From positions 1 to 26,954 of IMG/VR virus record IMGVR_UViG_3300044971_003581: a stretch of DNA of 26,954 nt; one strand, written 5' to 3'. Position 1 is the stretch's first letter. Each line of letters opens with the position of its first letter. The stretch comes from a virus. Below, piece by piece: positions 8,401 to 21,000 of this stretch. The notes below the pieces were generated by a model. The model was not told where the DNA came from. It worked only from the letters and a program-made list of their open reading frames with translations, and searched no databases. A program made the translations under genes and the position numbers.

Positions 8401-8492
8401 TTTCAGGCTCGCCACCAATTCTTTTACTGGAAATTGGAAACCAGGCGGGAGAGAGTCCCATCCGCACCACTTGCCTTTTTAAGGAAAGGCAA
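8401..8492 (-). ncRNA. structured leader RNA element (candidate wcaG-type cis-regulatory RNA)
   Basis: Read on the minus strand, TTGCCTTT pairs with AAAGGCAA in an 8-bp hairpin. GCGG-AT-GGGA pairs with TCTCCCGC, leaving an AT bulge. CCAATT pairs with AATTGG, and its loop contains CCAG, which can pair with CTGG just upstream and form a pseudoknot. A terminator follows at once, then the carbamoyltransferase-gmd-fcl genes. The wcaG RNA motif is known from cyanophages upstream of exopolysaccharide genes such as GDP-fucose synthase, so this is a good candidate by position. I could not compare it with the covariance model. A shorter sequence motif is shared with the repeats at 8763-8837. Confidence 0.45.
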
Positions 8493-8497
8493 GAAAC

Positions 8498-8710
8498 CTA
8501 TTTGTTTTCAGAAACAAAGTCATTAATAACTTGCGCTTGCTGAAGAACTTCATCTAGAGTTGGATATTTTGGAATATCCATCTTGACAGTATTCATAGAA
8601 CTTTGATTCCAGTCTCTTACAAAGTCGTAATTAACACAAAAATTATCATTGAGCATACTATATGCTTGTTTGAAAATTTCAAAACGAAGTTCGTAAGGTG
8701 TTTTAGACAT
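8498..8710 (-). CDS. hypothetical protein, cyanophage-type
   Basis: This is a small acidic protein of 70 residues with no signal peptide or membrane segment. It contains one Cys and an aromatic patch (NFCVNYDFVRDWN), followed by YPTLDEVLQQAQVINDFV, which is probably helical. It lies between two structured intergenic stretches: the tandem repeats upstream and the leader-like element with terminator downstream. An ATG is preceded by ATGGAGATTA, where GGAG is a reasonable ribosome binding site. I do not recognise a function. Confidence 0.65.
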   Translation of the reverse strand: MSKTPYELRFEIFKQAYSMLNDNFCVNYDFVRDWNQSSMNTVKMDIPKYPTLDEVLQQAQVINDFVSENK

Positions 8711-16915: not shown

Positions 16916-16987
16916 TGGGTTTAGTGGGATTTGAACCCACAACTTCCAGGTTAAAAGCCCGTTACTCTACCGTTGAGTTACAAACCC
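16916..16987 (-). tRNA. tRNA-Lys(UUU)
   Basis: The acceptor GGGTTTG pairs with TAAACCC. The anticodon loop CTTTTAA gives TTT. The T loop is GGTTCAAATCC. Its 5' base directly follows the encoded CCA of tRNA-Ser(GCU), leaving no spacer. Confidence 0.93.
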
Positions 16988-17078: not shown

Positions 17079-17087
17079 AAAAAGAGA

Positions 17088-17155
17088 CCTCCCTGTTTGC
17101 GCTTCTATGAGAGGCGTGGGAGGGGCAGGTCTTACACAAGGTTTGGACCCCTGCC
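17088..17155 (-). other. two-hairpin leader of the tRNA array
   Basis: CCTCCC/GGGAGG (17088-17123) and GGCAGG/CCTGCC (17124-17155) form adjacent stems between the promoter at 17168-17196 and tRNA-Ser(GCU). The 9-mer CTATGAGAG occurs twice on the plus strand, near 17104 and 17157. It is probably the 5' leader of the precursor tRNA transcript. Confidence 0.45.
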
Positions 17156-18222: not shown

Positions 18223-18846
18223 TCAGAGATCTACGGTGATCATTCTGTTAGCATAATCATAAGCATATGAGGTACGGGCACCGTGATGCCCCCAACCAAT
18301 CCAACTATACGCATAGTCCATATAACGATTGATAGACTTACCAGGGGTTTTCATCCTATCTTCAATTCGTCTCCATTGAACTTCAGTCGTTAGATATCGA
18401 AGTTGTGTCGGAAGTGCTGATGGAGAACCACCATACCTCTTAGCAAAATCACCCAATCCATAATAACGATCGGCAGATGTCCATTGAATCAGTCCGTAAC
18501 CACGTCCGCAGTTACTCCAACTGGTTCTGCTACCACCTTCGCAAATGTTAGGAATAAAAGTTGATTCCTGACGAATATTACCCATAATGGTAGCAAGGGC
18601 GTTTTTGTCTTTAATACCACGCTCCTGGAAGTATGCCAGGGTAGCATTTTCATTTTCATTACACCCTTTACAAATTAGCCTTTTCTCTTTTGGCTTTTCG
18701 GGAGCAACCTCTAGGATCGCTGTCTTCTCTGGTTCAAACTCCTTAATAATAGAATATGAAGGAGCAGTAGCAGATGATGGCAGTGTTGCCGTTGCGGTTG
18801 TAACCGTTGCCAGAAGAGGCAGGGCTACAGTAAAGATGTTTAGCAT
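18223..18846 (-). CDS. tail-lysozyme-like peptidoglycan hydrolase
   Basis: ATG at 18846 gives 207 residues; an upstream in-frame TTG at 18900 lies in a hairpin and would block the signal. The N-terminus is a signal or anchor (MLNIFTVALPLLATVTTATA), followed by a Pro/Glu-rich linker and CKGCNENEN. The catalytic region has DKNALATIMGNIRQESTFIP, then GRGYGLIQWTSADRYYGLGD and LRYLTTEVQWR. This matches phage tail lysozymes (lysozyme-like fold, Glu of Q-E-S as acid, G-x-x-Q-W). It probably cleaves peptidoglycan. A secreted form would be a lysis enzyme rather than a tail component. Confidence 0.72.
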   Translation of the reverse strand: MLNIFTVALPLLATVTTATATLPSSATAPSYSIIKEFEPEKTAILEVAPEKPKEKRLICKGCNENENATLAYFQERGIKDKNALATIMGNIRQESTFIPNICEGGSRTSWSNCGRGYGLIQWTSADRYYGLGDFAKRYGGSPSALPTQLRYLTTEVQWRRIEDRMKTPGKSINRYMDYAYSWIGWGHHGARTSYAYDYANRMITVDL

Positions 18847-18950
18847 TAAAATTAATTGAACTCTACATCCGTATAGAAAGGGGGTACACCCTTTTCTCAA
18901 AGGGCACTTTCCACGGCTCTAAATCAAACTCAAAATCTCATAATAAGTAC

Positions 18951-19522: not shown

Positions 19523-19820
19523 TGGAGACACCGTTGATCTAAGTATTGATTTGGGGTTTGGTATTACTATCAAACAAAGAGTTCGTCTTAAAGGTATTAA
19601 TGCTGCAGAAACAAGAACTCTAAATGTAGAAGAAAAAGATAAAGGTCTTGTTGCAAAAGAATGGCTAAAAAAAGAACTCTCCCGTGAAGGAGAGTGGATT
19701 ATTGAAACAACAAAAGAAGACAAGTATGGAAGAATACTTGGAACTCTTTATCTTGTAGGTGATCCAGTCACGGTAAATGAAAGAATGTTAAACGAAGGAA
19801 TAGCAGAACCTTATATGTGA
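19482..19820 (+). CDS. staphylococcal-nuclease-like thermonuclease
   Basis: This 112-residue protein has the SNase core. RVIDGDTVDLSIDLGFG carries the calcium Asp. QRVRLKGINAAETRTL carries the first catalytic Arg and the Glu. KYGRILGTLYLVGD supplies the second Arg. Such enzymes cut DNA and RNA with calcium. There is no signal peptide, so it should act in the cytoplasm, for example on host nucleic acid, or be virion-associated. It is last in the plus-strand block and converges on the endolysin gene with a 10-bp 3' overlap. Confidence 0.85.
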   Translation: MYQYKIKKINRVIDGDTVDLSIDLGFGITIKQRVRLKGINAAETRTLNVEEKDKGLVAKEWLKKELSREGEWIIETTKEDKYGRILGTLYLVGDPVTVNERMLNEGIAEPYM

Positions 19821-20302
19821 GTATTCCAAAGAGTTCCTTCTGCTTTTCTTCTTCTCGCTAATCCCACCTCAACTCTTGTTCCTGCATTACGATAAAGATA
19901 TAAGGCATCAGGAACTTTAGACCACTCTTTATGTTTTAAGACTCTTGTTATCGTATTAAAATCAGAGCTTCCATAAAAATCAGCGCCAAGATTATAAGCA
20001 AAGCTAAGAATTGCGCCTTGTTGATTTTCATTCATCTCTCCCCAATATGGTATTTTTGAAAGTGATGGAAGAAACCTATTTTTTAAATCAAACTCAAGTA
20101 AAGTATCAGCATACTTTTGAGTGATCACTCTTCCCATTTTAAAAGGAGTTCCATCAAAGTCCCTTGTACTGCCCCACCCTATTGTGATGGGAGGTCCTTT
20201 TGTTAAAGGATCTGGATATGCATTTAGGTGACATCCCTCAAAAGTTTTAATTAATTGAACACCACAAAGAGGGATGTCATTCTTAAACGGTGTTGACTCT
20301 AC
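19811..20302 (-). CDS. GH24 lysozyme domain, reached only by -1 frameshift from the C39 gene
   Basis: The frame is open from 20302 to the stop at 19811 (163 residues) but has no ATG, GTG or TTG before 20137. That internal ATG would remove the whole catalytic region. Upstream of it lie GVQLIKTFEGC, AYPDPL and PITIGWGS. They supply the Glu, Asp (+9) and Thr (+18) of T4-type lysozymes, with a 3-residue insertion. The rest has NENQQGAILSFAYNLGADFY and VEVGLARRRKAEGTLW, standard GH24. The frame is exactly -1 from the C39 peptidase and begins at the last base of its slippery site. It therefore probably exists as the C-terminal half of a 396-residue endolysin. Confidence 0.82.
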   Translation of the reverse strand, partial: VESTPFKNDIPLCGVQLIKTFEGCHLNAYPDPLTKGPPITIGWGSTRDFDGTPFKMGRVITQKYADTLLEFDLKNRFLPSLSKIPYWGEMNENQQGAILSFAYNLGADFYGSSDFNTITRVLKHKEWSKVPDALYLYRNAGTRVEVGLARRRKAEGTLWNTHI

Positions 20303-20308
20303 TTTTTT
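20229..20308 (-). promoter_or_regulatory. candidate programmed -1 ribosomal frameshift signal
   Basis: On the minus strand the C39 frame ends GTA AAA AAG TAG, containing the canonical slippery heptamer A AAA AAG (20308-20302) in the correct phase. Seven nt later AACACC (20294-20289) can pair with GGTGTT (20263-20258). The loop between them holds TGACATCCCTC (20279-20269), which pairs perfectly over 11 bp with GAGGGATGTCA (20239-20229). This would make an H-type pseudoknot. A -1 slip continues with GTA GAG TCA into the GH24 lysozyme frame. Confidence 0.72.
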
Positions 20309-21000
20309 ACGTCAAAAATACGACCCCACCCAGTCTTATCTTTTCCTTTATCTAACCATCGGTAAGTAAGATCTGACTTCTTATATACAGCACCTTTACC
20401 ATTTGTAACTGCTCCAGTATATCCATCATTTAGAGAACCATAAGGATCGTTGACAACGTAGTCTTCACCCTTCTTACCGATCACTACAACCATGTGCCCA
20501 CCAGTAGGTGCAGATAAAGAACCCCGATGAAGAATCCCGATAACGACAGGTTTCCCAGCGGCAAGCTCACGATCAAGATCAGCAAAAGAAAGATTGTAAC
20601 TAAAGTGTGACTTAACACCATAAGAGTCCAGAACTTTTGTCTGAACTGAGTGATCTGTTGTGTCACCAATAGCAAATACTTTTTGAACATAGGCATCATC
20701 GCCCTTTGCTCCCTTAAGTGTGCCTGGTTTAAAGTATTCTAATACCATAGCACAAGAAGATGAATTACAGGTTCTATTTGCATCTCTGTAATTATCTGTC
20801 TGTGGATAATAAGGAACGTTCAGAATTCCTGGAATTACAGGTTCTAGTTTAGTTCTAAAAATTCTAACCCAATTTGATGTATCATCAATCAAATCTGGAT
20901 TTTTAGATTCTAAATCCTTTTCAAGTTGCTCAACTGCGGCAACGTGCTTTGGATTTTTTGGATCATAATATTGAAAAAAGTTATGAAGATCTACTTTCAT
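20299..21000 (-). CDS. C39-like cysteine peptidase half of a two-domain endolysin
   Basis: This is a 233-residue protein in the zero frame. GILNVPYYPQTDNY and CNSSSCAMVLEYF give the Q-x(n)-C-x-x-x-A-M of Peptidase_C39_2. GGHMVVVIGKKGEDYVVNDP supplies the His and Asp. These folds cut peptides, including peptidoglycan cross-links. The stop follows an A-rich slippery site and the -1 frame codes a complete GH24 lysozyme. The product is thus probably made both alone and as a 396-residue peptidase-lysozyme fusion. The ATG shares one base with the upstream stop. Confidence 0.8.
   Translation of the reverse strand: MKVDLHNFFQYYDPKNPKHVAAVEQLEKDLESKNPDLIDDTSNWVRIFRTKLEPVIPGILNVPYYPQTDNYRDANRTCNSSSCAMVLEYFKPGTLKGAKGDDAYVQKVFAIGDTTDHSVQTKVLDSYGVKSHFSYNLSFADLDRELAAGKPVVIGILHRGSLSAPTGGHMVVVIGKKGEDYVVNDPYGSLNDGYTGAVTNGKGAVYKKSDLTYRWLDKGKDKTGWGRIFDVKK

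Follow-up and report, generated by a model that had tools for sequence, protein, structure and literature searches.

A probable programmed -1 ribosomal frameshift links a C39-like peptidase to a GH24 lysozyme in the endolysin locus of T4-like cyanophages

T4-like cyanophages very probably use programmed -1 ribosomal frameshifting at their endolysin locus (probability about 0.93, from comparative sequence analysis) to produce both a C39-like peptidase and a fusion of this peptidase with a GH24 lysozyme. The window, i.e. the whole stretch of DNA analyzed, is a T4-like cyanophage fragment, a virus record of 26,954 bases with the feature on its minus strand. In the proposed mechanism, most ribosomes on the C39 gene would stop at the UAG codon and release a 233-aa peptidase. 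A fraction would slip back by one base at A_AAA_AAG, where the Lys-tRNAs would re-pair on AAA AAA, promoted by a stable stem or pseudoknot that begins 3-8 nt further downstream. The shifted ribosomes would traverse a linker into the lysozyme, yielding a peptidase-muramidase fusion of 396 aa, composed of the 233 aa of the C39 part and 163 aa from the -1 frame, and this fusion would make up a share fixed by the frameshifting. It is an inference that ribosomes slip at the heptamer at some rate, that lysis involves both products and that the ratio between them is important. In the window, the locus consists of the following elements:

20299..21000, minus strand: C39-like papain-fold peptidase reading frame, zero-frame product of 233 aa (PF13529; PHROG 3617 positions 1-235)
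20302..20308, minus strand: slippery heptamer A_AAA_AAG, in phase with the C39 frame (read from the sequence; present in 93/93 distinct homologous junctions without a coupled start)
20299..20301, minus strand: zero-frame stop codon TAG, adjoining the heptamer (read from the sequence)
19811..20308, minus strand: -1 frame with linker and complete GH24 lysozyme without a start codon (Pfam; PHROG 3617 positions 245-404)

The C39 reading frame ends with GAC GTA AAA AAG TAG. In agreement with the original prediction, the heptamer (20308-20302) is thus in phase directly before the stop codon (20301-20299). Pfam Peptidase_C39_2 (PF13529) matches this reading frame over the whole domain (1-143/143, E=8e-15), which identifies the zero-frame product as a C39-like peptidase of predicted activity. 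The -1 frame extends just one codon upstream of the heptamer, is open through it, reading KKVESTPFK..., and terminates at the stop codon at 19813-19811. It contains a match to the entire Phage_lysozyme model (PF00959, 1-125/125, E=7e-22) with the E-D-T catalytic triad, and the nearest solved structures to this domain are lysozymes and endolysins (PDB lysozymes E=1e-15). The earliest ATG, GTG or TTG of the -1 frame is located at 20137 (MGRVITQ...), past the catalytic E, D and T; the lysozyme is hence complete but has no start of its own, and the first ATG in its frame falls behind the active site, both as anticipated. PHROG 3617, a family of 405 positions, spans the C39 part (1-235) as well as the lysozyme (245-404), so other phages are known to carry the two domains in a single protein. 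Elsewhere in the window, a second lysozyme-like gene (Phage_lysozyme2, PF18013) is found at 18223-18900 on the minus strand, apart from the frameshift locus, and a wcaG RNA element (RF01761) at 8401-8501, also on the minus strand, upstream of carbamoyltransferase and sugar-nucleotide genes.

Relatives were gathered from IMG/VR by protein similarity, so the loci were not chosen for their junction. The 321 loci with a C39 match gave 179 distinct junctions. In 134 of these the lysozyme lies in the -1 frame and overlaps the C39 stop, 19 are in-frame fusions and 26 are neither. A start codon overlapping the stop (ATGA, GTGA or TTGA) is present in 41 of the 134 overlap junctions, which have kept the heptamer in 18 cases and lack it in 23. 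Each of the 93 distinct overlap junctions without such a coupled start contains an in-phase A_AAA_AAG, and all 23 heptamer-less overlap junctions have an overlapping ATG or GTG start (Fisher p=5e-15, uncorrected for kinship). The heptamer was found in none of the 26 C39 genes without overlapping lysozyme or fusion. Among the 111 heptamer loci, the stop codon follows directly in 90 and one codon further in 21. In the same genes, the third base is A in 27-58% of V, A, T and E codons and in 4% of I codons, and AAA and AAG are used at 65:35. Judged from this codon usage, it is very unlikely that, without selection, about 40 nucleotide clusters would all show an A at the third position before AAA AAG, although the product of the codon probabilities is only indicative because the clusters are related. 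The -1 frame lysozyme has a median dN/dS of 0.13 and the E-D-T residues are kept in 88 of 88 complete copies; by these measures it is under purifying selection.

A possible H-type pseudoknot had been proposed for the sequence behind the heptamer in the window, composed of these arms:

20289..20294, minus strand: stem 1, 5' arm AACACC, 7 nt after the heptamer
20258..20263, minus strand: stem 1, 3' arm GGUGUU, pairing with 20294-20289
20269..20279, minus strand: stem 2 (pseudoknot), 5' arm UGACAUCCCUC; an allied 9-bp version is 98% paired in 22 relatives
20229..20239, minus strand: stem 2 (pseudoknot), 3' arm GAGGGAUGUCA, beginning at the catalytic Glu codon

The geometry is as claimed, with a spacer of 7 nt, a stem 1 of 6 bp, a stem 2 of 11 bp and loops of 9, 5 and 18 nt. 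The 85-nt fold of the window has a z-score of -3.0, and a hairpin of the stem 1 type is not exceptional, being equalled by 12 of 100 shuffles. In the minimum-energy nested fold, the 11-bp stem appears with a different outer helix and stem 1 is absent, which leaves the pseudoknot of the window plausible, not shown.

Among the relatives, the sequence following the heptamer is highly divergent in letters and in length (44-92 nt to the Glu codon), yet a contiguous stem is nearly always present, e.g. AAUCAACACCACA/UGUGGUGUUGAUU, GCCAACUAAC/GUUGGUUGGC and AGUUCUAUUC/GAAUAGAACU, or GCUCUACUUC/GGAGUAGAGC in phage S-PM2. The stems were compared with 100 amino-acid-preserving shuffles per locus. In the 93 loci without a coupled start the mean stem length was 10.9 bp, versus 6.1 bp in the shuffles, with at least 9 bp in 85 loci; the stem begins 3-8 nt past the heptamer in 92 of them, and in 84 the real stem score was matched by at most five of the 100 shuffles. 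A few loci (L148, L077) have weak stems. In contrast, nine heptamer loci with a coupled ATG showed no excess (5.7 bp vs 5.2 bp shuffled). In a gap-free alignment of 22 relatives sharing one linker length, 98% of the stem cells were paired and four pairs were changed on both sides, a level reached by none of 500 shuffles, while sliding the arms as a control lowered the pairing to 36-45%. RNAalifold recovered the same stem unaided. Taken from this alignment, the stem is conserved as a structure, with covariation, across relatives. A second helix between the loop UCCCUCAA and the downstream UUUGAGGGA would form an H-type pseudoknot with stem 2 adjoining the 3' arm of stem 1; in its 9-bp version it is 98% paired in the 22 relatives, with no double compensatory changes. 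A CCCTC-like loop tends to occur with GAG, not GAA, as the codon of the catalytic Glu (p=1e-8, without correction for kinship). A candidate for the expected downstream stimulator is thus present, but its general form is a stem of 8-14 bp, the pseudoknot being limited to the clade of the window and allied groups. The alignment of homologues suggested earlier, once run, found heptamer, frame and stem conserved over dozens of clusters, and a pattern in which the relatives are plain fusions lacking these signals was not seen among those compared; the earlier interpretation as a frameshift is supported in the main.

Three other explanations of the overlap were weighed. The main alternative named in the original prediction was a one-base indel in the A6 run. 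A gene that is truly a plain fusion would then appear split because one base was misread in sequencing or assembly, or because a recent mutation inactivated it. Homopolymer runs are error-prone and plain fusions do exist in relatives, including versions that are one A apart: with A7 in place of A6 the two genes are fused in frame, as observed in only two small groups, L147 (same junction in L192) and L169 (identical junction in four further loci, L188-L191). However, an identical A6 with its stop recurs in 93 distinct junctions from many contigs, and S-PM2 carries its junction in two genome records. Stop codon, heptamer and stem are moreover conserved together, and the lysozymes are intact and under purifying selection. 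With the heptamer in all 93 loci without a coupled start, among them the isolate S-PM2, a one-base error is effectively excluded. Slippage of the polymerase at A6 (or U8), by which some mRNAs would gain an extra A and encode the in-frame fusion, is just as improbable. A homopolymer is present, phage S-CAM7 has a run of eight T and the A7 genomes read as fusions, but polymerase slippage requires neither the fixed phase of A_AAA_AAG nor a stem 3-8 nt downstream, and A6 is a short run for it.

It is also very unlikely that the lysozyme is translated separately, whether ribosomes re-initiate behind the C39 stop or start at a non-AUG codon of the linker. Coupled ATGA, GTGA or TTGA starts are used by relatives (the 41 distinct junctions above), the linker of the window has an ATC, and 29 of the 93 heptamer loci without a coupled start have some ATG, GTG or TTG in or near the linker, five of them an ATG. 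The remaining 64 loci, however, have no usable ATG, GTG or TTG upstream of the active site, 19 of these also lack an ATT, ATC, ATA or CTG far enough upstream, and such a codon follows a Shine-Dalgarno-like motif in only one of the 64. When a non-AUG or internal start was considered as a candidate, no consistent codon or ribosome-binding motif was found across loci. Separate translation would also leave the invariant in-phase heptamer and the downstream stem unexplained, and the stem is missing where a coupled ATG exists. The arrangement, as judged from the junctions, is widespread in the Kyanoviridae, S-PM2 included, and not particular to the phage of the window.

Among annotated phages, searches at the DNA and protein level detected S-PM2, S-SRM01, S-CREM1, DSL-LC02/03, ACG-2014f and S-CAM7. 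The S-PM2 junction, GCA AAA AAG TAA, leads into a start-less lysozyme in the -1 frame and is identical in two GenBank genomes, the original and a spontaneous deletion mutant; the annotated S-PM2 lysin is a 72-aa fragment. In S-SRM01 the heptamer is present and the lysozyme ATG overlaps the stop. ACG-2014f encodes C39 and GH24 as an in-frame fusion, and such natural fusions in its clade indicate that the fused product is viable. An in-phase heptamer in ACG-2014f was considered as a truncation signal and rejected, as it is absent in most fused relatives, and was hence regarded as a relic or a chance occurrence. In S-CREM1 both domains are fused in reverse order, and DSL-LC02/03 carry them as separate genes. 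One further locus, L193, is an in-frame fusion with an in-phase A_AAA_AAG and a stem, where a -1 shift would terminate at once; on this reading the frame roles are swapped, with the zero frame giving the fusion. No C39 relative was confirmed in bacterial or archaeal genomes among 39 seed matches. In S-CBP4 (L326, about 1500-2030) an unannotated C39-like peptidase lies in two frames, by frameshift or error, and a phage contig carrying the C39/lysozyme locus (L361) has an ARAGORN tmRNA call, asterisk-marked, at 827-1128.

The window encodes a tRNA-Lys(UUU) at 16916-16987 on the minus strand, also present in S-PM2 and expected to read both heptamer codons. A tie between such a phage tRNA and frameshifting was rejected: S-CREM1 has the tRNA without the overlap, and no match was obtained in several large frameshifting contigs. 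Beside the tRNA cluster, an Rfam abiF RNA match (RF03085, 46.5 bits) is located at 17087-17123, minus strand.

A different slippery sequence is observed in S-CAM7, where the junction GTT TTT TTT CCA CAG TAG contains an in-phase U_UUU_UUU within a run of eight T. In the S-CAM7 phages and their IMG/VR kin the lysozyme is in the -1 frame without a start, and a bulged 11-bp stem lies 7 nt downstream of U_UUU_UUU. The loci are:

L324, L327 and L328 (S-CAM7): U_UUU_UUU, at about locus position 2190-2240
L329 and L330: U_UUU_UUU

The arrangement is retained in a relative with an 87% identical protein, and on the C39 tree the lineage is nested among in-frame fusions with moderate support. The frameshift appears to have originated separately here, or at least to reach the same result with a different slippery site. 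Across the C39 tree, frameshift, coupled-start and other arrangements interleave, and well supported branches require the frameshift label to have changed at least 12 times, which suggests repeated exchange between expression modes, perhaps by recombination.

The occurrence of fusions, coupled genes and separate genes among kin indicates that both activities are kept. We consider it rather likely that in the Kyanoviridae a programmed frameshift that fixes the ratio of peptidase to fusion as a control of lysis has been retained, and has apparently arisen at least twice with different slippery sequences (A_AAA_AAG and U_UUU_UUU), with lineages switching among frameshift, stop-start coupling, in-frame fusion and the swapped form of L193. 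In S-PM2 and S-CAM7 the annotated lysins are short pieces that begin only behind the catalytic residues; annotation of these model cyanophages has hence overlooked the true enzyme. As a natural series of frameshift, coupled start, in-frame fusion and separate genes, the locus would allow the value of a set hydrolase ratio to be tested, and it is a rich source of data on -1 frameshift signals in cyanobacterial viruses.

Bacterial -1 frameshifting combines a slippery motif with a stem or pseudoknot generally 5-8 nt downstream (PMC4066793). The cyanophage site resembles A_AAA_AAG frameshifting in IS transposases and dnaX in its in-phase heptamer, the proposed re-pairing of Lys-tRNA and the downstream stem or pseudoknot. 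It differs in that the proteins it would join are two wall hydrolases from a lytic phage, the stop follows directly or one codon past the heptamer, and the 3' arm of the stem lies within lysozyme codons. In dsDNA phages, the conserved tail-assembly frameshift (Xu et al. 2004, as cited in PMC3556154) likewise yields a short and a C-terminally extended protein from one phage gene by a -1 shift; as described there it concerns tape-measure chaperones, and here lysis genes of cyanophages. A lysin encoded over two overlapping frames, in a different phage with a gram-positive host, is attributed to Shearman 1994 (Appl Environ Microbiol 60:3063) in PMC10885494, which cites it for a lysin frameshift. 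For genes 39/40 of Alteromonas phage vB_AspP-H4/4, a putative slippery sequence and a -1 frameshift involving the endolysin gene are mentioned (PMC5658483); there the frameshift product is given as endolysin together with an internal virion protein, in a single sentence of an announcement without comparative test. Closer to the window, the ACG-2014f fusion (PHROG 3617) has the same two domains in the same order and is homologous over both, but is encoded in one continuous frame, and the heptamer is mostly absent in its wider clade. The S-SRM01 lysins (YP_010670249, YP_010670250) share the two genes, their frame relation and the heptamer; unlike at the window locus, the lysozyme starts at an ATG of its own that overlaps the stop, and there is no stem beyond shuffles. 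The original prediction knew of no such system for cyanophage lysis enzymes, and in the open-access literature likewise no paper was found that describes frameshifting for a lysis gene of cyanophages. Frameshifting by -1 has long been known in phages and lysin overlaps have been mentioned; what appears to be new is its use for the lysis enzymes of cyanophages, together with the comparative evidence for it.
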